Origin: a virus
DNA: 51,948 bases
Direction: 5' to 3' (one strand)
IMG/VR virus record: IMGVR_UViG_3300034407_001903
Coordinates: 1 to 51,948 of that record
The translations under genes were made by a program, and so were the position numbers. The notes under the pieces were generated by a model. That model had not been told where the DNA came from. It saw nothing but the letters and a program-made list of their open reading frames with translations, and ran no database searches. Below are positions 7,403 through 38,562 of the stretch, piece after piece. How positions within the stretch are numbered: position 1 is the stretch's first letter; each line of letters starts with the position of its first letter.

Positions 7403-7421
7403 GCCTAAGGAGAACTTGAAG

Positions 7422-9157: not shown

Positions 9158-9170
9158 GGAGAACATGAAA

Positions 9171-26100: not shown

Positions 26101-28957
26101 CATTGATACTGGTGCTAGCGGATCAAGCGGCAGTACTTCAAATACACAAGTAAATCGTGTAGAAATTAGCGGATCAGACAATCATACACATAATTTAGAC
26201 TTTGGTAGAAGTTCACAAGGCACACAACAAATTGGTAAAGTTGGTGTTAAGGGTCCTATTACTGGACAGTTTAACGTCAATGGTTCGGTATTAGAACTAA
26301 CGCCAGGCGCTGGTACAGGTTCAGGACAAGGTGCTAAAGTTAACATTTACGGGTCGAATAGTATCGGTTCTGGTAGTGGCATACAAAGTAGTGAACTAAT
26401 TGCAAGTTTCTCAGGAGACGCTATTAGACTAAACAAAGATGTTATTACACAAGCAACTAGTTTAGGTACAAATCAATCAACATTTGATCTTGTTAATGAT
26501 ACTGCAACAACACTTAATATTGGTGGCGCTGCAACAGCTATTGACATCGGTGCATCAAGTGGTTACTTGCACGTTAACTCCGCTGACCAAGCAGTTAGTA
26601 CTACAACAGGTGCGCTACGTGTAGACGGTGGCGGTAGTTTTGGTAAGAACTTGTATGTTGGTGGTAACTTAGTTGCTGCTGAACTTACACTAACTGGTGC
26701 TATTGATGGTAACAGTTACAATGTAGGCGGTGTTGAAGTAATTGACACTAACAGACGCTTTGTTTCAAGCGGTGGCACAACTGGTGAACTTTCAAAAGTA
26801 CACGGCATTAGCTTTGACTGGGACGGCAACTACGGCGCAGTCGGCGGTTATGTAAACCATGGTATTAGTTCACGTAACGAAACTTGGGGAGCTAACGATA
26901 GTTTAAGTATTAACTCGTACAACAATGTTAACGTAAGACTTGATACTAACTCTAACAATGCTGCTGCAAGTACATTCTTCCGCATTAACAATGACGTAAG
27001 TCAAACTAATGGTAACATTGTACTAAGTGCAAGAGGCGACGGCAAGGTTGGTATTAACAAAGATCCAAGCGGTACTTACAACCTAGATGTTGGCGGTAGC
27101 TTTAATGCTACAACTGGTTACATTAACGGCGGCGCAATTTGGACTGACGCTAATGACGGTGCCGGTTCGGGCTTAAACGCAGACTTGCTAGACGGCTTAC
27201 ATGCAGATAGCTTCCTACGTGTTGATACTGGTGCTGCATTTAGTGGTGGTGTATTTAAGATTAGTGCTCCTGCAACAACAATTCAAAACACTGGCGAAGT
27301 TAACACATTACAGTTATATCAAGGCAACGGTGCTAATAGTTACGATGCATTTATGACATTCCATATTGGCGGTGACTATGCTGTACACTTTGGTTTAGAT
27401 GGAAGTACAAACGATCTAGCATACGGCGGTTGGTCAGCTGGTGCAGTTGCAAACAAAGTATGGCATGCTGGTAATGATGGTAGTGGCAGCGGACTAGACG
27501 CTGACTTACTAGATGGACAAGATAGTGCATTCTTCCGTAATGCAAGCAACCTAAACGCTGGTACATTCCCAGACTTATTTGCAAGTGGTACACGCTATAA
27601 CATTGGATTTATAGACGGTTACGGTGGCGACAGCTACGACAAACTACGTGTTTGGAACAGTGGTTCATACTCAATAGGTATGCACAGTGGTCAAACAATG
27701 GGTTGGCTGAACGACTATGCAATGACCTTTACAATGAACAACGACAGCGATCGTGGCTGGAAATGGAGACATGAGAGTGACGGCGTTGCAGATGGTGCTA
27801 TGTCACTTACAACAGATGGTCGACTAGTTGTTAAACAGTTTATTGCAGTTGGTAATCAAACTACACGTTACCTAAGAGAACCAACAGGTAACTACGGTTC
27901 GATTCAGATTAGCGGTAGTGGATTTGGTAACTGGGAAGGCTTTAGCATTGACGGTCGTGCAGTATTCATGCATGACGGCGGCACTGGAACTGGTATCTAC
28001 AACGATGTAGATAACGAATGGTTGTTCTACGGTGTACACAACGCACAAACTGAAATGATGCATAATGGTAGTTGGAAAGTTCAAACACGTTCCAACGGTG
28101 CAAACATTGCAGGCGAGCTATATGTTGATAACTGGGTACGCATTGAAAGCAATTCAGGTATTTACTGGGAAGGTGGTAACTATGCTGGATGGCACATTTA
28201 TCCACAAGCAACTAACAGAATCCACATGCGTTCAGCTAACAGCGGAAGTTGTGAAGTTTCTCTTGCTAACAGTGCAAACACTATCTATGGTAGATTATAT
28301 GCAGATGATGCATCACAAGGCTTCCTAAACGAAGATGGTAACTGGGCACTACGTTCATACAACAACGACGGTGTTTCACCTGGTTGGAGATTCTACGAAA
28401 GCGGTAACGAAAGCTGGACAGGCAACCCAGGTAATGACGTTGGTAAGATTGAATATCACGCTAACAGATTCTACATTGCATCAGGTGCTAACTCCGATCG
28501 TGTTGTACAGTTTAGACGTGATGGAACAGATGTTTCATACGTTGATAACAGTGGTGTTTACCAAGGTACTGCTGCAAGTGCTAACTGGGCTGACTTGGCA
28601 GAGAAATACTTAGCTGACGAAGTTTACGCACACGGTACTGTACTTGCTATCGGCGGCGATGCAGAAGTTACATTGTTCAAACCAGGCATGAAACTAGCAG
28701 GCGTTGTTTCAACACAGCCGGGCTTGATGATGAACCAAACAGACGATAACAGAGATGATCCGATGTGGCCGTTCGTTGCACTTAAAGGTCGTGTACCAGT
28801 TATGATTAATGGTTCAGCTAAGAAAGGCCAGTATATCATTGCAGATCAAGACGGTAAAGGTCGTGCTGTAGACGAACTAAGTACTATAGCAGAATACACT
28901 TTATTAATTGGTACTGCATTAGAAGATGGTACAGATGTAGTTGAAGTGAAGGTATAA
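17195..28957 (+). CDS. giant tail fibre-like structural protein (3920 residues)
   Basis: The N-terminus (residues 1-45, LAEQLDLGEIAINTADGKMF) is the common fibre-start module also seen in major tropism determinant proteins. Residues about 160-200 (RIYVSAEYGDDTNDGRTGAV) begin a beta-helix-like region. Seven ~160-residue repeats follow (about 212-1290), each with a C-x-RD[VT] motif. Another beta-helix segment starts near 1325 (NISYTTIMVSTGEYKED, VVGDNLRTTIIRP). Mid and C-terminal parts are Asn/Gly/Thr-rich shaft sequence. The last ~130 residues (DLAEKYLADEVYAHGTVLAI, then KLAGVVSTQPGLMM) resemble the C-terminal Peptidase_G2/intramolecular chaperone-like domain found on fibres. Probably a long receptor-binding fibre; polymer and receptor unknown. 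Confidence 0.75.
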   Translation: MANKILHKRNNVSGQEPLAEQLDLGEIAINTADGKMFIKQSDGSIKDVTQQIEKGDTRVVVNDQGNGVVTMEVDGIEKLRVDGTKVYVSDDLEIDDQGSIKLKELGQFGSSSVNIKAPPELEESYDIILPDTDARKGQILQNLGFGQTKWSDPGSLGGNRIYVSAEYGDDTNDGRTGAVKTIKRAAQLASDGIFTPVVDPGESAYAAKDLLEVNRTFLQTEVLNFSTKAFNITYDQAKCERDVGLIIDAIENDLRFGGDAATSHAGAAYSLESSALVKQAQDVATSYGLQRARDLAKSVVTNTPITNTTQVAVAQQFDGTKTATASEAATVESLGQKVVDFYDNGVGEAPNENQTQDVGLLNAETLIDNNKTFIQNEVIAFLNNKYSGFSFDAAKCSRDTGYIVDAANFDLLYSGNAESHYAGITYLNATASLVRSDQKQETLAGIDYARSLAEKVVLGQQVNYLYQTTVAQNTALTPGTQTEATVVFNNISKVYSILNSGIGTANGVVTTDAGKLNSEILIDQNQDFIKEEVIGYLTTTYPGFSYDQNKCRRDVGYILDAISYDLTHGGNNESIQAALAYYQWTAKDAVNLQLAETRAGITYAIDLAKLVIVNQDPATSYQGIFAQFKDVSNPGDATSQTILTGLGSLIDDIITDGDSTTIGLDIDPNNSVPSTVQDTVNANAILAANKEFIQAEVVAFIEENFGNFNYDPVACERDVGLIVDAVKFDIEHGGDAESIFAGISYYNNVTTGTGEITGDAIEVLRKQLQPTLDAVEYARDLLANVVLQNAVSNLYQSGTTQTFDGTNPSTTSVAQTVFDRANTILTILKNGLGTTNSFTKTTGTGALNTEALLQANTAFLQEEVLGYINSEYPGLTYDQASCRRDVELIVDAIAYDLTHGGNTNSIAAGTAYYRQAAAIVVSGQSTETLAGLVHLKELAQKVVRNVTVDVTYSAEAQVFDGANPGDVTSANTVGTLADIIIDIVDDGLSPYINITANGALTTDQDILDAGALIASNKLFIQKEVVAYVDGSWINFSSNYNQTTCSRDVGLILDAINFDLTWGGTSNAVAAGIAYFKQSSQLTLQRQLVQTIDGIMHAIRLAQQVVENYPVVSFQNTAAQVTDNLNPGSAEAITKIAELGALIEDIVIDGASATAGITILENGIVPNSNIVVQNAADLIALNRSFIQAEVVSYINTYFTNFTYDTDFCYRDVGLFIDAIQYDLIFGGNERAIEAGKSYYIGNTIVIPGQEFQTVLANRYFQSLVDNLLQNIVNKKLYQNVTGQITDPTKIVDGTTLGIVEAEFNTIVDIIENGPTSPNIPTEVEGAFNISYTTIMVSTGEYKEDNPVIIPDYVSVVGDNLRTTIIRPLNANQDIFRIRNGAYLLGVTFKDGLDAFNVPSFTGRYCTAFDDPFDTGVDRTGYIGLRDRPLITQSPYIQNVSIISFLGLSGCLVDGSKVITPNVPRFAIEAENPVFGETPEQGKSMVANAYTMLSFGGIGWRLTNDAYAQIVSCFQIFLGNGCWCQSGAYLSVTNSATNFGLYALRSSGYSANSFVFDRGVIAEVGAQASQQKLITVGTKRTPVNQFVIRLYDDDEYNNLANDITNSFKTIPNIVYFNAGEVGELYGDLANYEVVAVGSTTFTVQIGSGKNLGSWVEGGTVDINGAFNPAAVLSATYNNTNGALEIEVATLPSVSDVVTLTTLTFDGTNYPVYEEGSLSLEDNTITIPGHGLVTGDALTYRRNGNLEINGFADQGLYYVEVLTDDIIRLYQDDSRGFVADIIDISTGQHYFETQTEEFFIDDIILDADSNKLTHNKYQVLTLAPGTYNFEPGDTIEATTGVYRNKAFVYTYESATRQLTVSVEKADNSGSLTRIFFDATSIIDRDSSAIPQSNIPVTGFTSRTDLFTAEFTIDPTIVGGVLTNTGALKGTFIRLHRPSIVNSSSHTWEYAGSGTDYNALPQNGGITREEYEQFSDLPGRVYSSGTNELGDFKVGDFIVAENRTGNITFKNTVTVGELSALKLAVSDVVIEAISTDPGLGDNEPGGATDTRLITQNAARSFLANRLGDFIDKNVSTNSVSGAVPQMNAQGLLNSDIIPATRNFSLFTTDKKFGRFNLTDDIPAQEPLQGDIAQERYSRTFFTLSAPIALNEDDVIIELNTGATAIVDEDNGGAATVYLANIEGTFSNNISGNVLNVRGSNTTTYITNTGASEVRDIQYTMVQDSSSQFLRYLPSGATFVNGQTITAANSKTQGVITDQVEGVALALDLGNISTGNGYVPSTGSQTYKGVVLTNVSGTGTGAIADISVTNGKVTNVDLTRGGSGYAVGNALTATVDQLGGQNTQDFQVSILGVDNRVFVDLLAGKFVATTSSNDYTEDGNAVVTTVPLGNTTLTAFNADTIGNGGNVDYPASQITINSHIFDNGDVVNYASSPNPAIGGFIQGESYFVKVIDANTIELYNRYDLNAANKVIFTSSSTGTHAFIINYVDTRKDRIYAQDHGFTNGQAFRFVGANPPTGMSSGGYYYAGTVSQNTFSVHEFQQDAENSVNGVTQGAINFIQTGSGSADFIHQNITIYGEVNTSGNVETNWALTGSANVDASNIVSGVISTSRLAAVGTANSDTYLKGDSSWDYATRTVRTALNSPLNITGNFYTSGGQNFYFKNTQFDIDRTDGTLGNQSFTNIGVAAFSKAQFNVNSGEVELKAGVLDAGTLDGLDSQYFLDPGNLLNPVPVSRGGTQIDQYIAGDMIYATSPTTLNRLPIGSQGAVMVVDELGNPAWSNDVAPFVEDTNNFGVSRPLEIRHDVTNTPAVGIGVGMQFQVETANNNREVGGTIDAVASDVTFGSEDFSFKFNLMAAGFLAERMVLDSLGNLAIDGDLNVDGGDIKTTRTSATVYDTTVTSLSIGRSATSVTIGADKTGELRVRNATLVVGGDSIETQPVDAKIKAPNSLGTNKQGPDLTIQGGASTGSGVAGSVFIDTGASGSSGSTSNTQVNRVEISGSDNHTHNLDFGRSSQGTQQIGKVGVKGPITGQFNVNGSVLELTPGAGTGSGQGAKVNIYGSNSIGSGSGIQSSELIASFSGDAIRLNKDVITQATSLGTNQSTFDLVNDTATTLNIGGAATAIDIGASSGYLHVNSADQAVSTTTGALRVDGGGSFGKNLYVGGNLVAAELTLTGAIDGNSYNVGGVEVIDTNRRFVSSGGTTGELSKVHGISFDWDGNYGAVGGYVNHGISSRNETWGANDSLSINSYNNVNVRLDTNSNNAAASTFFRINNDVSQTNGNIVLSARGDGKVGINKDPSGTYNLDVGGSFNATTGYINGGAIWTDANDGAGSGLNADLLDGLHADSFLRVDTGAAFSGGVFKISAPATTIQNTGEVNTLQLYQGNGANSYDAFMTFHIGGDYAVHFGLDGSTNDLAYGGWSAGAVANKVWHAGNDGSGSGLDADLLDGQDSAFFRNASNLNAGTFPDLFASGTRYNIGFIDGYGGDSYDKLRVWNSGSYSIGMHSGQTMGWLNDYAMTFTMNNDSDRGWKWRHESDGVADGAMSLTTDGRLVVKQFIAVGNQTTRYLREPTGNYGSIQISGSGFGNWEGFSIDGRAVFMHDGGTGTGIYNDVDNEWLFYGVHNAQTEMMHNGSWKVQTRSNGANIAGELYVDNWVRIESNSGIYWEGGNYAGWHIYPQATNRIHMRSANSGSCEVSLANSANTIYGRLYADDASQGFLNEDGNWALRSYNNDGVSPGWRFYESGNESWTGNPGNDVGKIEYHANRFYIASGANSDRVVQFRRDGTDVSYVDNSGVYQGTAASANWADLAEKYLADEVYAHGTVLAIGGDAEVTLFKPGMKLAGVVSTQPGLMMNQTDDNRDDPMWPFVALKGRVPVMINGSAKKGQYIIADQDGKGRAVDELSTIAEYTLLIGTALEDGTDVVEVKV
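17815..21060 (+). repeat. seven ~160-residue repeats with conserved Cys-x-Arg-Asp in the giant fibre
   Basis: The repeats carry CERDVGLIIDAIENDL, CSRDTGYIVDAANFDL, CRRDVGYILDAISYDL, CERDVGLIVDAVKFDI, CRRDVELIVDAIAYDL, CSRDVGLILDAINFDL and CYRDVGLFIDAIQYDL. Their Cys codons start at 17909, 18380, 18845, 19337, 19838, 20324 and 20813. The spacing is 465-501 bases and always in frame. DNA copies are diverged, so the duplication is old. Confidence 0.9.
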
Positions 28958-28960
28958 TTT

Positions 28961-29335
28961 ATGGGAAACATGACAAGAGCCTCGGCAAGAGATTACTTTA
29001 CCGGAAATGCCGGGGCTCAGTTACGAGGATTTGACAAAACTGTTAACTTTGCTGCTACAGTATATGTTGCAGCAAACTATAATACCGGAGCCTCAGGAAC
29101 TGCATACGGTAATAGACGTTATGAATACGTTAATGCTGCAAACAGTCTGTATAATGGAAATGTTTATCCAAACACTACACAAGTAGATGCAACTCATTTA
29201 GTTGATCAAGCACTTAATGCTATTCAGCGTACTGTAGACTTAATTGAAGGCAGGATTGGTAATACTTACTTTGATTGGAGAATTTGTCACGCAAGTTGCC
29301 ATTATAGTTGTCATGGAAGTAGGGGGAGAAGATAA
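28961..29335 (+). CDS. small protein with C-terminal Cys-His-x-Ser triple repeat; candidate radical-SAM substrate (copy 1)
   Basis: 124 residues, starting three bases after the giant fibre stop. Conserved blocks shared with the next gene are FDKTVN-x-AATVY, GTAYGNRRYEYVNA, and the end RICHASCHYSCHGSRGRR. In the tail, Cys109/113/117, His110/114/118 and Ser112/116/120 form three exact C-H-x-S units followed by a basic RGRR end. A repeat-rich tail behind a longer folded or leader-like part is typical of radical-SAM-modified peptides; the His-Xaa-Ser (HxsA) type is the nearest named analogy. Six radical SAM genes lie downstream in the same operon. An alternative is a small virion protein whose Cys/His tail binds metal. 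No homologous family is claimed. Confidence 0.6.
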   Translation: MGNMTRASARDYFTGNAGAQLRGFDKTVNFAATVYVAANYNTGASGTAYGNRRYEYVNAANSLYNGNVYPNTTQVDATHLVDQALNAIQRTVDLIEGRIGNTYFDWRICHASCHYSCHGSRGRR

Positions 29336-29718
29336 TGGCAGGACAGACTCATGCTAATTTAGAAGCTCGATACTACAATAATGCGTATACAAGAATACGT
29401 ACATTTGATAAAACTGTCAACGTAGCAGCTACAGTATATTATGCACGATATGGTGGCCAAGGCCAGGGAACTGCATACGGAAATAGACGTTATGAATACG
29501 TAAACGCTCCCCAGTCTGCCTTTGCCAATACAGATGTCCCAAATAGTGTAGGTGATAATTTATTAATAAGAGCAGGTGATATACAAACATTTGCTGCAAA
29601 CGCAATCAGCAGAACAGTAAATGGCATCGAAGGAAGAATAACTAATCAATATTTTGACTTTAGAATATGCCATTCAAGTTGCCATTATAGCTGCCACGGC
29701 AGCAGAGGGAGAAGATAA
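29335..29718 (+). CDS. small protein with C-terminal Cys-His-x-Ser triple repeat; candidate radical-SAM substrate (copy 2)
   Basis: 127 residues, paralogue of the preceding gene and overlapping its stop by one base (TAATG). It shares FDKTVNVAATVY, GTAYGNRRYEYVNA and the tail RICHSSCHYSCHGSRGRR (Cys112/116/120). The N-terminal 25 residues and the central linker differ, while the last 18 residues differ by a single Ala/Ser change. Codons in that shared tail differ mostly at silent positions, so the tail is under selection rather than freshly copied. Function is inferred from the radical SAM neighbours: a modified peptide or a modified small virion protein. Confidence 0.6.
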   Translation: MAGQTHANLEARYYNNAYTRIRTFDKTVNVAATVYYARYGGQGQGTAYGNRRYEYVNAPQSAFANTDVPNSVGDNLLIRAGDIQTFAANAISRTVNGIEGRITNQYFDFRICHSSCHYSCHGSRGRR

Positions 29719-30780
29719 ATGATAGGCGAAAGTTTTTACTATATCAGTAATAAAAAATACATAGGACGATCTACTGCAATGCTTTCGGCATTATCAGAAA
29801 GTCCTTGGAGCGGAGTTCAATCAAGACGTATTAGTATAATAATGCCAGATGGGCATAGTGCTGTACAAGAAAGTTATGCATCGTCATTAAGTAATGATTA
29901 TCCATTAGCAAACGCTGAAGATATGATAACATTTGCTAATTATAGCGACATTGATTCCTGGGAATACCTCAATAATAATACTAAAGAATTTTTATTATTT
30001 GAATCAGCGCATGAGTTTTTAAAGGTGTATGCAAAGTATACAGCTTCATTATTAAAAACAACAACTAGTAAAGATGTTAAACAAGTTGTTAAAGAATTTA
30101 TTGTATTGGCAACTACTAGAGATGTAACATATTCAACTATGGGTGTTTACAACGAAGGCGATATCAATGCAGCAGTAGAAGAAGTATTTGCAGAAAACGT
30201 ATTCTATGATATTCCTAATGCAACCAGCAAGCACTGGGGTTATGATATTCTTTTCTTTATTAATGACAAGTATAATGAAAATGAAACATATGCAGAAATT
30301 AATGTAACAACAACTGCATTTTTAAGAGAAAAGTTTACAGTACATAGTGATAAAATGATTCACGAAGTTATTAGTATGTTACAATCTAAAATCGGTTATG
30401 TAAGTGTTATTAACAATATTATTGATTGGTTTAATAACAACGGAAACACGGAATGGAATAGAGCTGAGTTTGTAAAAGATGTATTTCAAAATACAAATCG
30501 CATGCAAGCACTATACAGATTGCGTGACTTCTGGAACGATGTAGGTACTAATGAAGAATTGATGGCATTAATTGACGGGCATGACGAATGGGAATACGAA
30601 GAAGTATATAAAGAGTTTGCTAGAACTATTCCAATTGTCATACAAATTGCAGAGGGCGGATTTAATTTTGCAAATAACGAAGCACTAAGAAGTGCATGGA
30701 GCGAAGTAGAGTTTTTCTATAAACGTAAAAGTCGTATTCCTTATTTGCTGTTTAAAATATTACCACTTGTACCGGAGTAA
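29719..30780 (+). CDS. unknown protein in the radical SAM operon (353 residues)
   Basis: Starts immediately after the stop of the second CHxS protein (TAAATG). Mostly helical and charged, with no signal peptide and only two scattered prolines-rich turns. The N-terminal 60 residues contain YYISNKKYIGRSTAML and RRISIIMPDGHSAVQES. The C-terminal half is rich in aromatic and acidic residues (DFWNDVGTNEELMALIDG, HDEWEYEEVYKEF). No radical SAM cysteines are present. Sitting between the repeat-tailed proteins and the maturase-like genes, it could be a partner or scaffold for modification, or a virion-assembly factor. I do not recognise it. Confidence 0.6.
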   Translation: MIGESFYYISNKKYIGRSTAMLSALSESPWSGVQSRRISIIMPDGHSAVQESYASSLSNDYPLANAEDMITFANYSDIDSWEYLNNNTKEFLLFESAHEFLKVYAKYTASLLKTTTSKDVKQVVKEFIVLATTRDVTYSTMGVYNEGDINAAVEEVFAENVFYDIPNATSKHWGYDILFFINDKYNENETYAEINVTTTAFLREKFTVHSDKMIHEVISMLQSKIGYVSVINNIIDWFNNNGNTEWNRAEFVKDVFQNTNRMQALYRLRDFWNDVGTNEELMALIDGHDEWEYEEVYKEFARTIPIVIQIAEGGFNFANNEALRSAWSEVEFFYKRKSRIPYLLFKILPLVPE

Positions 30781-30782
30781 AA

Positions 30783-31490
30783 ATGACACAAGAAAATTAC
30801 ACACTGCCACTAAGTCCAACAGATTTAGCAGAAATATATAAAATAAAAACAAGCTCGGAAGATTACGTTCTCAAGGTTGATTATTTTAAAAGTAAGGAAG
30901 TACTGTCAGTAAAACATATACTTGTATATATTGCTAACACTAACTTTAAAGTACAGTTTGAAGGCATTGACGATGAATTAATAAATGAATATATAATTTC
31001 TAATTTTATGGTTGATTGTCCGTTGCTTTCTAGGTACATTACTCTTATTGCTAAAAGAAAATTAGGTCACGAATATAATCAAGTTGATCAAGCACTGAAC
31101 ACTATAATGACCGATGCTGACATTGATGCATATTTAGAAAAGAACGGAGAATTATTTGACGACTTGTTAGATAAACTAAAACACGTTACACTGTTTTGTT
31201 TAGACCAAGCTAGCAAGTATGCTGACAAGTATAAAGAATTCATACCAGAAGAGATTGAACGTGCAGATGAAGAAACTCAAATTGGACTAAATATTGTATA
31301 TATTGCAACATACTCGTTGGACTTGTTGTATTTGTTAGGTAATAAATTTGGTCCATGGCCTACTAATAAATTAAATGTTAGAGTGTTTAATGATGTTAGT
31401 AAGTACCAAGGAGCAGACCTATATAATACATTACTAAAATATGGTGTTGCAACTAGTATGTTAGAATTATTTGACGAGGAAATAGCATAA
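30783..31490 (+). CDS. unknown protein in the radical SAM operon (235 residues)
   Basis: An acidic, helical protein starting two bases after the previous stop, with a GGAG ribosome site inside that stop region. Segments such as YNQVDQALNTIMTDADIDAY and LDQASKYADKYKEFIPEEIE suggest a helical bundle. Only a few cysteines are present and they show no cluster pattern. It overlaps the first radical SAM start by one base (TAATG). Its place hints at a role with the CHxS proteins or the radical SAM enzymes, such as peptide recognition, but no recognised RRE/PqqD pattern is visible. Confidence 0.6.
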   Translation: MTQENYTLPLSPTDLAEIYKIKTSSEDYVLKVDYFKSKEVLSVKHILVYIANTNFKVQFEGIDDELINEYIISNFMVDCPLLSRYITLIAKRKLGHEYNQVDQALNTIMTDADIDAYLEKNGELFDDLLDKLKHVTLFCLDQASKYADKYKEFIPEEIERADEETQIGLNIVYIATYSLDLLYLLGNKFGPWPTNKLNVRVFNDVSKYQGADLYNTLLKYGVATSMLELFDEEIA

Positions 31491-32671
31491 TGACAATGCA
31501 ACAATCATATTGTAAACAGATGAAGTATAGTGGACCAGAAAGTCTACCTCCTTCACACGCCCAGAAGTTTGACGTATTAATTAACTTTGAAGGCCTCACT
31601 GGCTGCGAATATGGTTGTTTAGGATGCTTTGTTAATAAGAATCAAGACGTTACTACAATGAATCAAATGCTATCAACTGCAAAAGAACTAGCAGATGGCG
31701 TAAAGCGTACAGGTCTAAACTTACGTGAGTTTGTTGTAGGTCCAACAGATTTATTCTCTGCGTCAAATACTGATAGTATTCTTAATAATACTATTATACA
31801 AGATATAATGCGCGAACATACTAATGCACGTATTGCTACACCTAGTAAGATAGACGGCGTGAGTATGGAAAGATTGCGAGAAGTATTTGCAATACTCGAT
31901 GATCCTTCTAAGTATAGAGACGAAATGATCATTGAGTTTATTATGCCAGTTGGCGATGTTGATCGTATACTAAATGACGAAGAATATTTTAAAGATATTA
32001 AATCAAAATTAGAATTCTTTAAATCCGAAACTCCTAAGAAAATTGACTGGAGTTGGACATTACAAGCAAGTAATGTTATGCAAAAACATCTAACTAAAGA
32101 AAACTATAATAAACTGCTATATAAGATTCTTGATGAATATGAAACTATTCTAGAAATGAACCCAGCGTTCTCTAGAGCACCGAGTGTATTACACCAGCGT
32201 AAGAACTTAGTAGCATGGAATAACTTCCTAAAAGAAGTAGTAGATCAAGATAATTTTAAAGACGTTACAATGAGTATGGCTAACTTATATTGTAACTCCA
32301 TGAACTTCATTGGGTTAACTGTTGTTCCTGGATTAGAGACGCCACGTGTATTTTTAAATGTAATGTTACACGAACAAGCATTCTTTACACAGCATAGGGA
32401 TTTAGAAGTAACAGGACTAAGTTTTGAAGAAATTCTAGTCAAGAGGGATCACTTAATAGCACAAGGGTTAGCTAAGTCGTCTAAAGTTAAGGATTGTGCA
32501 GATTGCAAATATGCAGTAGCATGTGCAAACAGACTAATATTCCAAGCACAAGATGCAATGAACATGCACGAATGTTTAATGCCGCTAGAAGTATTAGAAA
32601 TGTATAATCCGTTTGTTACTAGTAACGAACAGTGGAACGACGATGCTTTAAAAATCGTCAATGCTCGTTAA
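31490..32671 (+). CDS. radical SAM protein, GPTD-type paralogue 1
   Basis: 393 residues. The radical SAM cluster motif is Cys39-x3-Cys43-x2-Cys46 in GCEYGCLGCFVNKNQ. Where the usual SAM-binding GGE motif is expected, at residues 84-87, it has GPTD (FVVGPTDLFSASN). The C-terminus has Cys336-x2-Cys339-x5-Cys345-x16-Cys362 (CADCKYAVAC ... HEC), a compact SPASM/twitch-like auxiliary-cluster signature. Such enzymes cleave SAM to a 5'-deoxyadenosyl radical and commonly modify peptides. A second ATG two codons later could be the true start. It is the first of five tandem homologues with overlapping ends, so it is translationally coupled. Substrate unknown; the CHxS proteins upstream are the obvious candidates. 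Confidence 0.8.
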   Translation: MTMQQSYCKQMKYSGPESLPPSHAQKFDVLINFEGLTGCEYGCLGCFVNKNQDVTTMNQMLSTAKELADGVKRTGLNLREFVVGPTDLFSASNTDSILNNTIIQDIMREHTNARIATPSKIDGVSMERLREVFAILDDPSKYRDEMIIEFIMPVGDVDRILNDEEYFKDIKSKLEFFKSETPKKIDWSWTLQASNVMQKHLTKENYNKLLYKILDEYETILEMNPAFSRAPSVLHQRKNLVAWNNFLKEVVDQDNFKDVTMSMANLYCNSMNFIGLTVVPGLETPRVFLNVMLHEQAFFTQHRDLEVTGLSFEEILVKRDHLIAQGLAKSSKVKDCADCKYAVACANRLIFQAQDAMNMHECLMPLEVLEMYNPFVTSNEQWNDDALKIVNAR

Positions 32672-33689
32672 CCTAAACTCAACGCCGACAGGATTTAATA
32701 ATTATATAGAAGGCATAAGCCCTAAGGATAATAACTTTCTTAGGACAGAAGTTCATGCTGATATATTACATGGATGCAGTCAAAAGTGTCCAGGGTGTTT
32801 CATTCCTAGAAAAAATCTTACTAATGCTGATCATCTTACAACACTATGCGATATATTGGAATCTAGTGCATATACACCTGATGATGTTGTAATAGGTCCT
32901 ACTGATATATTTGATGCTGAAAACTTTTGGGACTTAATGGACCATCCTAGTATGAAACGTTTATACAGTATTGCAGCACTAAGTTTTAACTCAACACTAC
33001 TACAGGACTACGATACTGTACTTGCCAAACACACTAAGATTTGGAGTCTTTACGAAGGACTGGATCGTACGCCTGATATAGATTTTAAAATAGTACTTGA
33101 TATTACTAGATATTTACAAGGCGATATTGAAGACATGTGTCGCAAACTAGAACTTTTTAAACAAGGTAGTGTACAGTTTAGAGTAAACTATTACCCGGGT
33201 ATATTTGATCGTGTGAGCTATAATGATTTATGTGATATGATTAAAGAAGACTTCAACGCTCCAGTAGTTATATTGCCAGGCTTCTTAACAGACAGAAATA
33301 GTCGAGGTAAAGTTAGTAAATTACTTCCGATGTTTTTAGACGAGCTACGTAAACAAGATATAAGACCCGAATACAAACAGTTATACACAATGTTTGATGC
33401 AAATTTTAATAGTCACGGATGTACCAATTATAGTTTTTACAACGGCAGCTTGTATATGAATCCATTTGTGTTTGACGGAATATTGCAGCGTACACAAGAA
33501 TTTAAAGTAGACAATCTTAATACTAAAAACTTTTTAGCTGAAAATTTATCATATGCAGCATCTACTAAAGAATGTGAAAGTTGCGAATACTTAATGAGCT
33601 GTGCAGAGCGCAATGTATTGTTCTATATGAAGTCGAGAAATTTAACAGAGTGTGTTACAGTAAAGGAGTATACAAATGCCGGTCATTAA
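32661..33689 (+). CDS. radical SAM protein, GPTD-type paralogue 2
   Basis: 342 residues, the shortest of the five. Cys39-x3-Cys43-x2-Cys46 lies in HGCSQKCPGCFIPRKN. The GPTD motif appears as VVIGPTDIFDAENFWD. The C-terminal cluster is Cys305-x2-Cys308-x5-Cys314-x16-Cys331 (CESCEYLMSC ... TEC), close to the protein end. It overlaps the previous gene by 11 bases and the next by 14. The overall layout is the same as its neighbours, so it arose by gene duplication, but sequence outside the motifs has diverged strongly. This argues for different sites or substrates rather than dosage. Confidence 0.8.
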   Translation: MLVNLNSTPTGFNNYIEGISPKDNNFLRTEVHADILHGCSQKCPGCFIPRKNLTNADHLTTLCDILESSAYTPDDVVIGPTDIFDAENFWDLMDHPSMKRLYSIAALSFNSTLLQDYDTVLAKHTKIWSLYEGLDRTPDIDFKIVLDITRYLQGDIEDMCRKLELFKQGSVQFRVNYYPGIFDRVSYNDLCDMIKEDFNAPVVILPGFLTDRNSRGKVSKLLPMFLDELRKQDIRPEYKQLYTMFDANFNSHGCTNYSFYNGSLYMNPFVFDGILQRTQEFKVDNLNTKNFLAENLSYAASTKECESCEYLMSCAERNVLFYMKSRNLTECVTVKEYTNAGH

Positions 33690-34857
33690 AAATAACTTGT
33701 ATTATGAGCTTACTACAGAAACGCAAACTAAGCCAGTAAGTGCAGTAAAAATACAGCTTGATGTGTTAGACGGATGTGTACACGCTTGCCCCGGGTGTTT
33801 TGTACATCGTAGAGGAAATGCACCTGAAGTTGATCATTTAAAAGATTGCCGAAACTTTGTAAAACGAATTACAGATGTAGGTGTTTTAGTTGACGAAATA
33901 CTCATAGGCCCAACTGACTGTTTATCTAGTGAAAACTTTTATGAAGTAATGAGCAATACTGATTTGTTAGCAATGATAAATGAAAACTCTCCTATACTTG
34001 CTTTTACTACTACATTTTTAGAAAAGGATCTAACACATTTAGATCGTTGGATTACGTTTTTACATGACAATGTGAATACTGACACTGAAATAGAAATTGG
34101 CATAGCAACTGATCCTATGCGATATAAAGATATACTTTATATACAGCAATTAAAACGCTGTATTGCATATGTCGACCAGCATTTAAAACATGAATGTACA
34201 TATACGTTTATTGTTAATATTAGAAACTATGACCTAGACTACGAGCAAATACATGATTTTGTAGTGAAGCAATTTGATACAACAATTGACTTTATTCCAA
34301 GTGTAAGTCGCAGTCATAAAGCAAGTATCATACTACCTACACTAAATCAATTCAATGAATTTTTTGAAGCATTACCAGAAGATACTCATTTAAATAATAT
34401 TATGGTAGATCACACACATGCTGGGCATAATTATACCGTATTAAATTTTAAAGGAGGACAGTGGTATCTAAGTCCGTTCCTTTATGAAAATATGGCATTG
34501 TATGATAATATGTTTGCAGTAAACAATCTAGACGAAGCATATGATCTTACTGTGTCACAAGTAGATCGAGCTAAAGGAACAGTGTGCGAAAACTGTGATT
34601 TATTTTTTAGTTGCTACAATAGAAAAATTATTTTATTACGTGACTACTTGGGTACTAAAGAGTGTATAGCGCCTAAGCAAAATATGTTAAAAAATATACA
34701 TAACTATAATAAAAGTGCTGCTGAAATGTATGACTGGACAGGATATACTGTTGAGGGTGATAAGCAAGGATATCGTAAAAAATTCTTAATAACTAAAGAC
34801 GGCGATGAAAGATTAGATGAAATAAAAAAGGTGTATCATGTCAATCGTAAAGGATAA
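33676..34857 (+). CDS. radical SAM protein, GPTD-type paralogue 3
   Basis: 393 residues. Cys34-x3-Cys38-x2-Cys41 lies in DGCVHACPGCFVHRRG. The GPTD motif is ILIGPTDCLSSENFYE. The C-terminal cluster is Cys304-x2-Cys307-x5-Cys313-x16-Cys330 (CENCDLFFSC ... KEC). It differs from the others by a 63-residue tail after the last Cys, rich in Lys, Tyr and Asp, which could be an extra recognition element. It overlaps both neighbours (14 and 20 bases). Radical chemistry on a peptide is likely; the actual reaction is not deducible. Confidence 0.8.
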   Translation: MPVIKNNLYYELTTETQTKPVSAVKIQLDVLDGCVHACPGCFVHRRGNAPEVDHLKDCRNFVKRITDVGVLVDEILIGPTDCLSSENFYEVMSNTDLLAMINENSPILAFTTTFLEKDLTHLDRWITFLHDNVNTDTEIEIGIATDPMRYKDILYIQQLKRCIAYVDQHLKHECTYTFIVNIRNYDLDYEQIHDFVVKQFDTTIDFIPSVSRSHKASIILPTLNQFNEFFEALPEDTHLNNIMVDHTHAGHNYTVLNFKGGQWYLSPFLYENMALYDNMFAVNNLDEAYDLTVSQVDRAKGTVCENCDLFFSCYNRKIILLRDYLGTKECIAPKQNMLKNIHNYNKSAAEMYDWTGYTVEGDKQGYRKKFLITKDGDERLDEIKKVYHVNRKG

Positions 34858-35932
34858 TTATTGGGAAGCAACAATGGGTCATAAAGACTATAATATCAGT
34901 GTAGGTGATGCACATGATATAAAAGTAAACATGACAGTTGACGTCCTTGACGGGTGCATACATGCTTGTGAAGGATGCTTTGTTAATCGCAGAAGACAGC
35001 AAGCATCTAATGATCAGTTTTCCAAAGTACTAGCTGCACAAAAAATGTTTAATCAAAATAACATTCGATTTAGCAGTATAATACTTGGTCCTACTGATGT
35101 CTTTGGTAATTTAAATATACAGGACGTTTTAAAATTTGATAGTTTTAAAGAAGTAGTAAGTAACTGCACCACTGTCGGAATGATTAGTACACTGCTTAAC
35201 GATGATGCTCATATCAATCCTATAATAGATGGCTTCAACGCTATACCTAAATGTGAAGGTTTCTTATATGACTTTCAAGTAGTTATTGATGTTAAACGAG
35301 CACTTGATCCAGAATATAGAAAGAATCACTTAGCACGTATACATGATGTTTTAAATAGATTTACTGATCCCTTAAACTTTACTATAATTTTTAATATGGA
35401 TCAAGACTTTGCTGAGTTTGGAAATCTAGCAGAAATATGTCGTGTAATAAAAGAAGAGTACGACACTATTGTAGAGCCTATTCCTAGTTATCAGCGTTAT
35501 GGTAAAGGAAAAATACACAACGATATTATTAGGGCGTGGGTTGATATAATAGAAGACACGTTCACTAAAGAAAATCAAGAATACCTAGCCATGACAATAG
35601 CTGACAAAAATCAAGGTGGCGCACTTGAATTAAATTATACATATAGTGCAGGAGAATTTTATTCAACTCCGTTTGTTTATGAAGTTGCACTTATACGTGA
35701 CGAAAAGTTTAGAGTAAAAGATCCAACAGATATTAAAAGTTGGACTAGCTTAAAAACAGACTTGTATATAGATCAGCTTGCGTATTCCCCTAAAACGCTG
35801 CATTGTGAAACATGCAATCGTCGTGAAATATGTTTGAAAAAACACGTATTAAGTTATATGGAGCATTTTGACTTTACAGAGTGTGTGTATCCTAGAGAAG
35901 TATTAAATGAATATAGGCCGTTAACATGTTAA
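34838..35932 (+). CDS. radical SAM protein, GPTD-type paralogue 4
   Basis: 364 residues. Cys40-x3-Cys44-x2-Cys47 lies in DGCIHACEGCFVNRRR. The GPTD motif is IILGPTDVFGNLNIQD. The C-terminal cluster is Cys323-x2-Cys326-x5-Cys332-x16-Cys349 (CETCNRREIC ... TEC). The N-terminal cluster region is very like paralogue 3 (LDGC[VI]HAC), so these two may be the most recent duplicates. It overlaps the previous gene by 20 bases and the next by 7. Its place in a coupled run suggests coordinated synthesis of all five enzymes. Confidence 0.8.
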   Translation: MSIVKDNYWEATMGHKDYNISVGDAHDIKVNMTVDVLDGCIHACEGCFVNRRRQQASNDQFSKVLAAQKMFNQNNIRFSSIILGPTDVFGNLNIQDVLKFDSFKEVVSNCTTVGMISTLLNDDAHINPIIDGFNAIPKCEGFLYDFQVVIDVKRALDPEYRKNHLARIHDVLNRFTDPLNFTIIFNMDQDFAEFGNLAEICRVIKEEYDTIVEPIPSYQRYGKGKIHNDIIRAWVDIIEDTFTKENQEYLAMTIADKNQGGALELNYTYSAGEFYSTPFVYEVALIRDEKFRVKDPTDIKSWTSLKTDLYIDQLAYSPKTLHCETCNRREICLKKHVLSYMEHFDFTECVYPREVLNEYRPLTC

Positions 35933-37053
35933 AAAATGATTGGCAAACTTATCTGCAAAATAATAAACAATCTCTTTCACCAGAGGGGTTTATAGATCCT
36001 GCTGATCAAAACAAGATAAAAATTCAGTTAATGCTTGAAATATTAGAAGGTTGTGCTTACAACTGTTCAGGCTGTTTTGTTAAAAGACGAAAAAACTTTG
36101 GACAGGGATTAGGGCTAGACTATGCTGCACAACTTGTTGACGAGTTAACTGATCAATATGTATTAGATGATATTATTGTAGGACCTACTGATTTCTTCTC
36201 CAGCGGAAATATAATACAAGTCTTAGAAGATCCTAGATTTAAAAAGATAGTGAACGCATTACCCAAAGACGGCGGACTACAGCATAACTGTTCAATAGAC
36301 TTTTTTATAGGAAATGATCGAGTAAAAGAAATTATTACTTATATTGAAAATAGCTATCTAAAGGATCGTCCGTTTGATGTACAAATTGCAGTAGACTTGC
36401 ATATGTTAGATAATCCACATGTACACGATTTAATAAGTGAACGCCTAGAAGCTATGGAAAATAGTTCTGTAGAATATGAAGTAAGCCTGCTGTGTAATAT
36501 AACTCAAGACATTGACGACGATGTATTAGACAAAATTGAAACTGTTAGAAACAAGTGGAATACTGTTGTTGAATGGGGGCCTAGTTTAGTACGTGCCATG
36601 ACAAATAGGCCTGATAAAATGTTAGGTATGATACAAGGATGGAATGACAGTATAGGAAAGGTTGCTAGCATAGATGAAAAGCGTTTTACACAAAACTTTA
36701 TATGGCAACAGAGCGATACTAGTCATAAAAACTTTAATGAAGTAATTGTTACAGTTAATAATGACCAGTTATATATAGTTCCGTTTTTATATGAAAATTC
36801 TCCTATATATCATCCTAGTTTTGAAGTACCAATAGGCAAAAATATATTAAACAGTATTTTTGATAAAAGGCACGATTTGCAATTAACACAATATGCTAAC
36901 ATTCCTAACTTAGTATGCAACGGATGTAAGTATGTAGAAAATTGTAGCTCTAGATTAATACCAACGCTAATCACAGATGTAGTTAAGCATAACCAATGTC
37001 TAATAAATAAAAACATAATGGCATTATACGACAATATAGGATATAATAAATGA
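35926..37053 (+). CDS. radical SAM protein, GPTD-type paralogue 5
   Basis: 375 residues. Cys43-x3-Cys47-x2-Cys50 lies in EGCAYNCSGCFVKRRK. The GPTD motif is IIVGPTDFFSSGNIIQ. The C-terminal cluster is Cys331-x2-Cys334-x5-Cys340-x17-Cys358 (CNGCKYVENC ... NQC), one residue longer in the last gap than its paralogues. The N-terminal 42 residues before the first Cys are the longest of the group apart from minor differences. It overlaps the next radical SAM gene by four bases (ATGA). Function is as for the group: a probable peptide-modifying enzyme. Confidence 0.8.
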   Translation: MLKNDWQTYLQNNKQSLSPEGFIDPADQNKIKIQLMLEILEGCAYNCSGCFVKRRKNFGQGLGLDYAAQLVDELTDQYVLDDIIVGPTDFFSSGNIIQVLEDPRFKKIVNALPKDGGLQHNCSIDFFIGNDRVKEIITYIENSYLKDRPFDVQIAVDLHMLDNPHVHDLISERLEAMENSSVEYEVSLLCNITQDIDDDVLDKIETVRNKWNTVVEWGPSLVRAMTNRPDKMLGMIQGWNDSIGKVASIDEKRFTQNFIWQQSDTSHKNFNEVIVTVNNDQLYIVPFLYENSPIYHPSFEVPIGKNILNSIFDKRHDLQLTQYANIPNLVCNGCKYVENCSSRLIPTLITDVVKHNQCLINKNIMALYDNIGYNK

Positions 37054-38258
37054 GCTGCGGAACAGAAATACTAAAAGCATTAATGCCGGATAACATTACT
37101 GATGATCACTTGTTGGACACAAAGGCACAGCAAGAAGCAAATGCAGTAACACACGCAATATTAGAGCGTAAGCGTCCTCTTATTGGCGAAATTGAAATAA
37201 CACTTTTTGAAAACTGTCCTATTAATTGCGACTTTTGCTTTCATGATAAAGAAAGCGAAGTAGGCATGACATATGAAGAAATGCTAATGAAACTTCCTCT
37301 AGTAGAAGCACACTGTAAAAAGATGCAGGGCAAAGTACATGCTATGCAGTTTAATATGGTAGGCGGAGAGCTGTTTCAAGACCGTGCAAAAGATACATTG
37401 TATCCTATGTTTTTTGATTTAATGGTAGAAATTAAAAAAATAACAGATAGGTACGGACACGTTATACAAGTAGTTTGGGTTAGTAACTTTTTGTTTAAGT
37501 ATCACGAAGATGTACGCAAACTGCTCGACGATCTAAATGCAGTAGACATACCGAGTAAACTGATTGCTAGTTATGATCTAAGTGGACGTCCTACAGGCGG
37601 ACAATACACTAAAAATATCGAACGTTTTAAAGATTATATTTCTACTATCAATTTAGTAGCAACAACAGACAGTATCAATGCATTGTTTGCAGGAGATGAT
37701 TATTTCAATTATCTATATGAAAACTTTGATTTGTTCTTTGATGATTTTATTCCAGATCCAGGATACGATCATTTAGTGCCAGCTGATTCGCTTTACTTAA
37801 AGTTTATGAAATACATTGCTGATAATTATCCAGAAGTAAATCCGTATAAAGAACTTATAGAAAATGATGTTAATCAAATGCATTGTATGAGCTTAAACAA
37901 GTTAACTATTTTTCCGGATAACACAACTGCAAATTGCCGTTGGCATCGTTATACACGCAATGATTTTCAACACGCATATATTAGAAAAGACAACACTAAC
38001 CTCATGCAAGCATACATGGACGAAGTTGGTTGTTTAAGTTGTCAATATTTTGATCGTTGCGGCTTCCGTTGTTACACGCAATGGGACTGGAAGAATCGTG
38101 CTAGGGATTTACCACCTGGCATTTGTCCTATAAAAGAGTTCTTTAATTATGTAGGGGATACTGATCAAACATCATCTCTTCCTCATAATAAGACCTTACG
38201 TCGGGCACCATTCCCGTCTGAGATGAAGGATCAGGAAGGCTTATATGGTCGAGAATAG
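37050..38258 (+). CDS. radical SAM/SPASM protein (GGE-type)
   Basis: 402 residues with a different ancestry from the five before it. The cluster motif is Cys56-x3-Cys60-x2-Cys63 in ENCPINCDFCFHDKES. A classical GGE motif is present (NMVGGELFQD). The C-terminal part has an upstream pair (HCMSLNKLTIFPDNTTANC) and then CLSCQYFDRCGFRC with a later GICP, which fits the full SPASM pattern C-x2-C-x5-C-x3-C-gap-C. SPASM enzymes bind two auxiliary 4Fe-4S clusters and usually act on ribosomal peptides. Its last 39 codons overlap the 3' end of a convergent gene on the other strand, so the true functional end may be around FFNYVGD. Confidence 0.8.
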   Translation: MSCGTEILKALMPDNITDDHLLDTKAQQEANAVTHAILERKRPLIGEIEITLFENCPINCDFCFHDKESEVGMTYEEMLMKLPLVEAHCKKMQGKVHAMQFNMVGGELFQDRAKDTLYPMFFDLMVEIKKITDRYGHVIQVVWVSNFLFKYHEDVRKLLDDLNAVDIPSKLIASYDLSGRPTGGQYTKNIERFKDYISTINLVATTDSINALFAGDDYFNYLYENFDLFFDDFIPDPGYDHLVPADSLYLKFMKYIADNYPEVNPYKELIENDVNQMHCMSLNKLTIFPDNTTANCRWHRYTRNDFQHAYIRKDNTNLMQAYMDEVGCLSCQYFDRCGFRCYTQWDWKNRARDLPPGICPIKEFFNYVGDTDQTSSLPHNKTLRRAPFPSEMKDQEGLYGRE

Positions 38259-38562
38259 CATTGTAAGTTTCTTTATCTTCGCTATAGGGTTTAAAGTATG
38301 GATCATTGCCAGCTAATAAATCTTTATCATCTAGTAGCTCGTAGAAATCGTATTTAAAATCTAAACTTATCCAATACGCATAACAGATTGCTACAAAATA
38401 ACTTTTAGCAGGATACACCCATTCGTCTACACGTTCGTAGAAATGTTTCACTGCCCAAATAACACTGTCTTCTTCTGTACGAATGTCGACTTTGTTTAAG
38501 TCGTCAGTAAATTCTGTTGCAGTACTATTAAATAGTTGTAATCTAGTCTTCCAGTTCAGCAT
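38143..38562 (-). CDS. unknown 139-residue acidic protein at end of minus-strand operon
   Basis: Rich in Asp, Glu, Tyr and Phe (VIWAVKHFYERVDEWVYP, YAYWISLDFKYDFYELLDD) and ending in SYYEEEMMFDQYPLHN. It overlaps the upstream minus-strand radical SAM gene by 20 bases, so it is coupled to it. Its last 116 bases overlap the end of the plus-strand SPASM gene tail-to-tail. The amino acid composition looks like a real soluble protein. It may partner the radical SAM enzyme before it. No family is recognised. Confidence 0.6.
   Translation of the reverse strand: MLNWKTRLQLFNSTATEFTDDLNKVDIRTEEDSVIWAVKHFYERVDEWVYPAKSYFVAICYAYWISLDFKYDFYELLDDKDLLAGNDPYFKPYSEDKETYNAILDHISLPDPSSQTGMVPDVRSYYEEEMMFDQYPLHN

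Follow-up and report, generated by a model that had tools for sequence, protein, structure and literature searches.

The stretch of DNA analysed here (the window, 51,948 bp; IMG/VR record IMGVR_UViG_3300034407_001903) comes from a T4-like phage and carries two adjacent small genes whose products, here termed CHxS proteins, end in three Cys-His-x-Ser units followed by R-G-R-R and lie in an island with nine radical S-adenosylmethionine (radical SAM) genes. About 100 IMG/VR contigs, and jumbo phages as well, encode members of this gene set next to proteins with a C-terminal CHxxCHxxCHxx-RxRR. On balance, and with slightly better than even confidence, we interpret the CHxS system as the post-translational modification of an attachment-apparatus protein, with the C-terminal tail as the target and a protein that we call u235 as the partner. 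The parts of this reading differ in strength: the tail is very likely to be an enzyme substrate, the phage CHxS protein is probably present in virions and the chances that it acts in attachment or penetration are evenly poised. The genes of the island are as follows.

28961..29335, + strand: CHxS protein 1, 124 aa (phrog_35144, E=4.8e-6); tail codons 29285-29332 encode CHASCHYSCHGSRGRR
29335..29718, + strand: CHxS protein 2, 127 aa; tail codons 29668-29715 encode CHSSCHYSCHGSRGRR
29719..30780, + strand: u353, function not assigned; goes with the paired-CHxS type, 24 related ORFs (open reading frames) in the fetched loci
30783..31490, + strand: u235, near-universal partner (68/69 loci) with a confident model
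31490..32671, + strand: rs1, GPTD-type radical SAM protein (core Cys 39/43/46; CxxCx5C at 336; phrog_31457)
32661..33689, + strand: rs2, GPTD-type radical SAM protein
33676..34857, + strand: rs3, GPTD-type radical SAM protein
34838..35932, + strand: rs4, GPTD-type radical SAM protein
35926..37053, + strand: rs5, GPTD-type radical SAM protein
37050..38258, + strand: rs6, widely shared radical SAM protein with CxxCx5CxxxC (phrog_1802, E=2.7e-24)
38143..38562, - strand: m139, small island protein (phrog_20737), tail-to-tail with rs6
38543..39460, - strand: m305, widely shared radical SAM protein (PF04055 over cut-off)
39453..40487, - strand: m344, widely shared radical SAM protein (PF04055 over cut-off; 56-61% identity in cultured jumbo phages)
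40487..41515, - strand: m342, core radical SAM/SPASM enzyme (TIGR04085 over cut-off)
41502..41978, - strand: m158, cupin-type protein and usual m342 neighbour (Cupin_2 26.8 bits, narrowly below its cut-off of 27.2)
41962..42492, - strand: m176, 2-oxoglutarate (2OG)-Fe(II) oxygenase (PF13759, E=9.3e-18)

The sequence-only reading of the window had recognized the two adjacent CHxS tails and, behind them, an operon of two unassigned and six radical SAM proteins with auxiliary-cluster cysteines; both observations hold, with overlaps or gaps of -20 to +2 bases from the CHxS genes to rs6. Its count of six radical SAM genes stands for the plus strand but not for the island, which has nine, since the minus-strand half (38143-42492) holds m139, three further radical SAM genes, the cupin-type gene and the 2OG-Fe(II) oxygenase. 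The five GPTD maturases that it stressed are present, but they are not the most widely shared part of the system: the enzymes recurring widely across loci are m342, rs6, m344 and m305, three of which it had overlooked. Besides its Cupin_2 score, m158 reaches 23.3 bits for JmjC_2 (cut-off 22), and its relatives are annotated as cupins in the Burkholderia phages SURPRISE13 (S13) and FLC6. A NUDIX hydrolase gene (42482-42934, - strand) ends the minus-strand operon and lies outside the shared set as far as seen.

The C-terminal CHxS tail is real. The DNA pattern for CH..CH..CH occurs twice in the window's record, and its backward-read control not at all. A first scan of IMG/VR used a degenerate DNA pattern for CH..CH..CHG[S/T]R that required neither RGRR nor a C-terminal position; it matched 108 stretches, with the motif inside an ORF in 105 (at loci L051 and L105 no ORF carries the motif despite the DNA match), and in 115 of 116 motif ORFs the stop codon falls exactly three residues after the Arg of the motif, L102 from IMG/VR being the exception. 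A second pattern, in which the Gly was dropped and RxRR plus a stop was required, gave at least 120 IMG/VR stretches, many of them shared with the first scan, and 19 bacterial-genome contigs, three of which (L119, L120 and L126) lack a C-terminal CHxS ORF and look like chance matches. Counting copies of the window and of Agrobacterium phage Atu_ph07, 233 C-terminal CHxS ORFs were found in 199 of 205 loci.

Residue statistics were taken from 210 complete CHxS ORFs, reduced to 138 by dereplication, with L152 (a copy of Atu_ph07) and 5'-open ORFs removed. These proteins are 124-364 aa long (104-364 aa when those of Bdellovibrionota are included). The fourth position is Ser in 125/138 for unit 1, Ser or Asn in 134/138 for unit 2 and Ser in 128/138 for unit 3, the last partly because the search patterns required it; position -3 is Gly in 124/138. 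The conservation of Cys, His and Arg is not evidence, because the patterns demanded these positions. One tail (L154) has four units. The bodies are rich in Thr, Ala, Asn, Gly and Ser and low in Lys and Cys, and those of the short type are mostly 30-39% identical to the window's while the tail stays conserved; the window's two proteins share 57% identity. Searches of phage records by tblastn with three CHxS proteins gave chance-level matches or none, presumably owing to the divergence of the bodies and the shortness of the tail. The CHxS proteins fall in no Pfam or NCBIfam family, and PHROGs places the tails in phrog_35144, to which no function is assigned. An AlphaFold2 model of CHxS protein 2 (predicted local distance difference test score, pLDDT, of 70.5) consists of a helix, a long hairpin and a second helix, with the tail at low confidence. 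Short CHxS genes of about 125 aa each occur as tandem pairs (window 28961-29718, L024, L025, L033, L150 and L181), and the paired proteins may form a hetero-oligomer; longer CHxS genes are mostly single, with pairs at L026 and L167.

Linkage was counted after assigning locus ORFs to profile families made from the window genes. The counts exclude copies of the window (L109 and L110) and of L112 (L205), keep the window and five isolate loci and are not dereplicated unless stated. In each of the 69 loci that extend 2.5 kb or more to either side of the CHxS gene, a radical SAM ORF lies within 2.5 kb of it; the same 69 loci contain u235 in 68 cases, m342 in 57, the cupin in 52 and rs6 in 40. After dereplication, 54/54 loci have a radical SAM ORF that carries the core motif and is 250 aa or longer, and 53/54 have u235. 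With flanks of at least 1.5 kb, a radical SAM ORF is present within 1.5 kb in 87 of 96 loci. The gene directly upstream of the CHxS gene is m342 in 115/162 loci, and the one directly downstream is u235 in 121/176. The sequence-only reading had suggested this test of co-occurrence and named CHxS proteins widespread without radical SAM neighbours as the result that would speak against it; in this sample every one of the 69 loci has such a neighbour.

The linkage was also followed in reverse from m342. Among the best 80 of 383 confirmed m342 loci, a CHxS gene lies inside the locus in 40 and directly beside m342 in 33. A further 21 m342 contigs were scanned whole, namely 21 of the 22 loci with at least 4.5 kb downstream and no local CHxS gene (L209 was omitted, its contig being that of L074, which has the pair); the CHxS pattern was found in 14 of the 21 and the backward-pattern control in none. 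The other 18 CHxS-free m342 loci had less than 4.5 kb downstream and lay outside this whole-contig search. Of the seven contigs without the strict pattern, one (80.9 kb) has u235 together with a protein ending CHYSCFTSSCHFSRGRR between m342 and u235; the other six (7.9-40.8 kb) are also without u235. No m342 was found in plasmids at E<=1e-20. In three viral loci (L039, L085 and L103) the island includes an additional m342-like gene that is more divergent (E about 1e-28 to 1e-30).

An alternative in which the CHxxCHxxCHxx tail stays unmodified and forms a metal-binding knot at the tip of a fibre or spike, with the radical SAM enzymes acting elsewhere, has to be judged against this linkage. The Cys/His spacing suits metal binding, and His-bound iron is known from the fibre or spike tips of T4 gp37 and P2 gpV; we nevertheless regard this alternative as improbable in view of the radical SAM gene within 2.5 kb in 69/69 loci and of Bdellovibrionota tails, CHGNFPPPCHGSRGRR and CHSSHSSHSSHSSRGRR among them, that retain the operon and lose the metal-site spacing.

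The CxxxCxxC core is present in all nine radical SAM proteins of the window; as an N-terminal motif it occurs in 9 of the 24 window ORFs of at least 250 aa, which are exactly these nine. They are only 18-27% identical pairwise, and among them PF04055 exceeds its cut-off for m305 and m344 alone. Proteins rs1-rs5 have GPTD where rs6 has GGE, and all six have CxxCx5C near the C-terminus. The assignment is clearest for m342, of which 15 sequences, with 38-55% identity between the window's and the rest, share an invariant CxLxCxHC core, HGGEP and the full SPASM pattern, which we take to be Cx9-15Gx4C ... CxxCx5CxxxC ... C. The corresponding positions are C251-x10-G262-x4-C267, C306-xx-C309-x5-C315-x3-C319 and C329, numbered as in alignment A4 without the start Met and thus one less than in the protein. 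The window m342 passes the TIGR04085 SPASM domain model (28.6 versus a cut-off of 27 bits). Its best scores against named maturases, 42.8/340 bits for PapB and 42.0/349.45 bits for the anaerobic sulfatase maturase, are both far below cut-off, and the m342 of L016 reaches 51.3 of 340 bits for PapB. The nearest models of m342 include the peptide maturases PapB, DarE and DynA, and the anaerobic sulfatase maturase, which alters Cys or Ser inside a full-length protein, is the second-best NCBIfam model for m342 as well as for m344.

The partner u235 is modelled with high confidence (pLDDT 93.4, predicted TM-score 0.91). No PDB fold matched it at E<=0.001; in BFVD, five phage proteins matched at this threshold, including those of Atu_ph07 and RSF1. 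Its relative at L016 is 357 aa long, equal to the RSF1 protein in BFVD. Neither u235 nor u353 has a Pfam or NCBIfam family over cut-off, nor does u353 have one in PHROGs, and PDB sequence searches with the u235 and CHxS profiles gave nothing useful.

Searches by tblastn with m342 and with m344 each returned the same seven phage records: Burkholderia phages SURPRISE13, FLC6 and FLC8, Agrobacterium phage Atu_ph07 (two records), Sinorhizobium phage Phosso and Pseudomonas phage pPa_SNUABM_DT01. The gene after m342 ends CHSSCHTSCHGSRGRR in SURPRISE13 and FLC6, CHSSCHASCHNSRSRR in Atu_ph07, CHTSCHASCHSSRSRR in Phosso and CHTSCHTSCHSARGRR in pPa_SNUABM_DT01; the C-terminal peptide of the Atu_ph07 CHxS protein (FDI40_gp170, YP_009611835.1) is CHSSCHASCHNSR. 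According to the accessible text of their descriptions, S13 and FLC6 belong to the Chimalliviridae, nucleus-forming phiKZ-type phages (PMC11898562), and Atu_ph07 groups close to the Rak2-like members of the T4 superfamily (PMC6102473); the cultured CHxS-carrying phages are from unrelated groups. Radical SAM ORFs are also noted, in the accessible text on them, for Ralstonia phages RP12/RP31. The island of the Burkholderia jumbo phages holds two dihydrofolate reductase genes (L111:20391-21568; assigned by Pfam for the first).

In the window, in Atu_ph07, in Phosso and in the Burkholderia and Pseudomonas phages, the CHxS gene sits after tail, baseplate or other virion genes. The virion genes of the window are as follows.

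3962-5707: portal
7416-8045: head maturation protease
9165-10337: major head protein
12624-17126: baseplate wedge
17195..28957, + strand: 3920-aa tail-fibre-like/structural ORF, directly 5' of the CHxS pair
42951-44381: sheath-type gene

Three bases separate the end of the 3920-aa ORF from the first CHxS gene. Of the 105 loci with at least 3.5 kb of sequence upstream of the CHxS gene, 54 have a same-strand homologue of the end of this fibre gene (its last ~300 residues) in that interval. The most direct evidence on virions comes from Atu_ph07, for which the accessible text of Attai 2018 attributes the majority of the virion proteins identified by electrospray ionization tandem mass spectrometry (ESI-MS/MS) to three clusters of coding sequences (CDS), 31-76, 170-215 and 284-329 (PMC6102473). 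CDS 170 is the CHxS gene (RefSeq tag FDI40_gp170) and opens the second cluster; the numbering agrees with the paper in that its baseplate proteins gp181 and gp182 adjoin the 4449-aa structural gene 180. The same text identifies gp215, at the far edge of this cluster, as the major capsid protein and gp31, at the edge of the first, as a tail fibre protein, and reports that every tail fibre protein was detected in virions, as was the major capsid protein (PMC6102473). Because the cluster edge falls exactly at the CHxS gene, this suggests that the CHxS protein was detected in Atu_ph07 virions. For the related phage AP-J-162, the accessible text gives a structural cluster of ORFs 49-63 with ORF 58 as a large structural protein; by the gene order of Phosso, ORF 63 would be the CHxS gene.

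The virion setting bears on two further alternatives. A C-terminal repeat tail with SPASM enzymes is the grammar of ribosomally synthesized and post-translationally modified peptides (RiPPs), and m342 lies near the PapB, DarE and DynA models, as would suit a true RiPP in which the body is a leader and the tail is cleaved and released or injected as a modified peptide (a toxin, an anti-competitor or a host-takeover factor). We consider this unlikely, as the proteins reach 364 aa and have the composition of structural proteins, conservation runs to the last Arg and the gene stands at the edge of a virion-protein cluster; no protease or exporter is evident in the isolate annotations, in which no systematic search for them was made. 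The sequence-only reading had raised a modified virion protein as a side option, and this fits the sequences better than a peptide product, in view of the length of 104-364 aa, the T/A/N/G/S-rich bodies, the tail/baseplate location and the start of the Atu_ph07 cluster. A mycofactocin-type redox or electron-carrier protein inside the infected cell would make use of the cupin, the oxygenases and the many iron-sulfur (Fe-S) enzymes, and early proposals for HxS-like cassettes favour such a role; against the low-complexity structural-type body, the tail-gene location and the edge of the virion-proteome cluster, it appears highly improbable.

The system is phage-borne, as the sequence-only reading held, but it is not limited to phages: chromosomal copies in Bdellovibrionota exclude a phage-only distribution. 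Eight of the 19 pattern-positive bacterial-genome contigs are titled Bacteriovorax, Bacteriovoracaceae, Halobacteriovoraceae or Bdellovibrionaceae. The island adjoins genes for ribosomal protein S20, thiolase and acyl-CoA dehydrogenase in L307, Met-tRNA synthetase and cytochrome oxidase in L310/L311 and pyruvate kinase in L309, and in L321 it lies on a contig of 4,153,408 bp; these housekeeping flanks and the chromosome-sized contig place the island on the chromosome. Contigs of the genome bins Rhodobacteraceae Water_Bin34 and Bacteroidetes UBA4009 are probably phage, because a tail sheath is encoded on the same contigs; the PF04984 sheath search of 13 genome bins gave matches in three, two of them over cut-off and both on m342 contigs (G027 and G028).

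A match to m342 at E<=1e-60 is present in 18 of 368 Bdellovibrionota genomes and the strict tail pattern in six of 191. In the stretches read from the 18 m342-bearing genomes, a tail gene ending R[GS]RR was found in 17, with three CH units in nine; none was seen in 13 kb of G184, and in G031 the tail gene is on a different contig from the best m342 match. Eight tails are variant, for example CHTNVPTPPPCHASRGRR, CHGNFPPPCHGSRGRR, CHSNHCSHSNHGSRGRR, CHSNCYTPPPKSRSRR and CHSSHSSHSSHSSRGRR. In a tree of 70 dereplicated m342 sequences, all 15 rows from these lineages, whose predatory life we take from their names, fall in one supported group (100/99) with Atu_ph07 and three IMG/VR contigs, and three label changes are needed, which suggests movement between giant phages and Bdellovibrionota unless the three IMG/VR contigs are bacterial.

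Within about 10 kb, 11 of the 18 m342 genomes encode a protein of an S74-chaperone-domain family, mostly with a pilin-like N-terminus (Pfam S74 was found in the two proteins tested and the pilin motif was over cut-off in one; the rest were assigned by a profile to these two). Genes that combine a pilin-like N-terminus with an S74-type C-terminus near the CHxS island are L307:12655-13692, L310:9628-10920, L321:11576-12706 and L323:10683-11783; we know of no earlier example of a pilin-anchored S74 fibre. Between m342 and the S74 fibre gene lies a gene for a protein of about 122 aa with the export-signal-like start MNRRxF (L323:10235-10603, L324:11000-11368, L328:2190-2558 and L321:11118-11495), the second half of which resembles a repeat of phage tail fibres. 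A protein of 184-209 aa ending RHWVxVK adjoins the S74 fibre gene in ten Bdellovibrionota loci, and its loci include L310:10929-11528, L312:17129-17755, L118:7150-7704 and L134:1563-2156; no Pfam family was found in the two tested. The 192-209-aa form was rejected as a relative of the phage fibre end, since hmmsearch with the phage profile found nothing and the reverse search gave E=0.001 at best.

The bacterial copies also help in judging whether the substrate of the radical SAM enzymes is instead nucleic acid, nucleotides or cofactors (as in hypermodification of phage DNA or evasion of defence), the CHxS gene being a structural gene linked to them. The dihydrofolate reductase genes of the Burkholderia islands, the NUDIX gene beside the window island and the multi-enzyme set would agree with this. 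The enzymes, however, are of the SPASM peptide-maturase type, the set, u235 and the tail gene stay together both on bacterial chromosomes and in unrelated phages, and no dihydrofolate reductase or NUDIX gene is annotated in the other isolate islands, where many genes are 'hypothetical'; we judge it to be as improbable as the metal-binding knot.

In the modification of an attachment-apparatus protein that we favour, the CHxS protein would be made as a full-length structural protein, the phage version being built into the tail/baseplate region of the virion. The target would be the C-terminal tail, usually three C-H-x-S/N units and then R-[GS]-R-R at the very end, and RGRR and the body may guide the enzymes. 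The Cys/His/Ser units would be altered first by m342 and then by rs6, m344, m305, the variable GPTD enzymes and the cupin/2OG-Fe(II) oxygenases. u235 may be a dedicated carrier, recognition or chaperone protein that presents or protects the tail, and the modified cationic tail would be exposed and act at the outer membrane of the Gram-negative target. What the loci have most consistently in common is a tail with one Cys-His pair or more and an R-x-R-R end, along with m342 and u235. We infer a role in attachment or penetration at Gram-negative envelopes from the nearby tail genes in phages and the nearby S74 fibre-type gene in Bdellovibrionota. A bolder version, which we hold tentatively and rate somewhat below even, is that tailed phages of several unrelated lineages and Bdellovibrionota share an undescribed attachment/penetration tip acting on Gram-negative outer membranes, namely a structural protein of full length with its CHxS-RGRR tail cross-linked into a non-standard chemical structure by four to nine radical SAM enzymes and oxygenases, with u235 as the partner.

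Several observations weigh against this interpretation. Modification of the tail is a prediction from sequence; a modified residue has yet to be observed. Confidence in the CHxS structure model is intermediate, and a fold search with it gave no significant PDB match. The edge of the Atu_ph07 virion cluster may be conventional, as all three clusters are 46 CDS long. Nine of the 96 loci, the window among them, have no radical SAM ORF inside 1.5 kb; L197 has CHxS and u235 with no radical SAM ORF in 8.5 kb upstream (its downstream flank is 1.6 kb), and contig G015 (40.8 kb) carries m342 with neither CHxS nor u235. Not every locus has the GPTD set, the oxygenases and m139, and these may have another role. 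The eight Bdellovibrionota tails with one or two CH pairs indicate that three units are not essential, and in a single case, L027, matched via its Ser codon, five CHxx units end in SSGGW instead of RxRR (this 504 kb contig, IMGVR_UViG_3300028886_000026, has an m342-like gene nearby). The window fibre end is without an S74 domain, and hhalign gives a probability of 12.6 for the 'RHWV' protein against the phage fibre end.

If the favoured reading is correct, phage virions contain ribosomal proteins rebuilt by radical chemistry, which to our knowledge is known in no virus, and the numerous radical SAM genes found in some jumbo and marine T4-like phages would gain a substrate. Sharing with Bdellovibrionota chromosomes connects two kinds of agents that breach Gram-negative envelopes. 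The system also brings in a number of radical SAM families that have no classification and, in u235, a conserved partner without a PDB fold match, and the cultured carriers Atu_ph07 and Phosso make it directly testable.

Among known systems, the closest in outline is His-Xaa-Ser, which likewise has short C-terminal His-x-Ser repeats and radical SAM/SPASM enzymes. Membership was rejected, as every curated cut-off tested was missed: the window CHxS proteins have no match to HxsA (TIGR03979, NF038309 and NF038296), nor do seven other CHxS proteins in one scan and four in another; the best match, that of a Bdellovibrionota tail (L329, CHSSHSSHSSHSSRGRR), is weak at E=0.0091 and 16.0 of 121.65 bits. 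Window m342 scores 33.5 of 370 bits for HxsB and m344 21.5 of 267.9 bits for HxsC, both under cut-off, and no HxsD match appears for the 14 window proteins scanned against NCBIfam (for m344 and m342, among the best 25 families), a set without m158, m176 and the NUDIX gene. The H-S-S repeat tail of L329:4310-4918 is a possible bridge between CHxS and His-Xaa-Ser proteins. The CHxS system differs from His-Xaa-Ser in the Cys of its units, the R-x-R-R end, u235, the cupin, up to nine enzymes and the virion setting. With the SPASM maturases (PapB, DarE/DynA, FxsB and the anaerobic sulfatase maturase) m342 shares the complete Cys pattern and passes the domain cut-off, but it is far under every equivalog cut-off; the family scans support the earlier description of a repeat-tailed substrate candidate with SPASM-type enzymes and no named family.

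In published work, the cupin, radical SAM and 2OG-Fe(II) oxygenase genes listed without a role in the accessible text of the FLC6 and S13 papers (PMC8066314, PMC11898562) belong to this island; gp72, the CHxS protein, goes unnamed there and no substrate is proposed. The T4-like marine virus TARA_ERS488813_N000010, with 12 radical SAM genes, is similarly radical-SAM-rich, and the accessible text of Nishimura 2017 discusses these genes as Fe-S cluster metabolism and names no substrate (PMC5332604). The MAT fibres of B. bacteriovorus, with phage-like S74, act on prey (Caulton 2024; PMC10769870), and the accessible text describes no CHxS or radical SAM link; the S74-type proteins found here differ from them in the pilin-like N-terminus. 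In the literature searched, no title or abstract opening describes CHxS proteins or their link to radical SAM genes. The CHxS system belongs to no named kind, and its enzymes are of a well-known superfamily.

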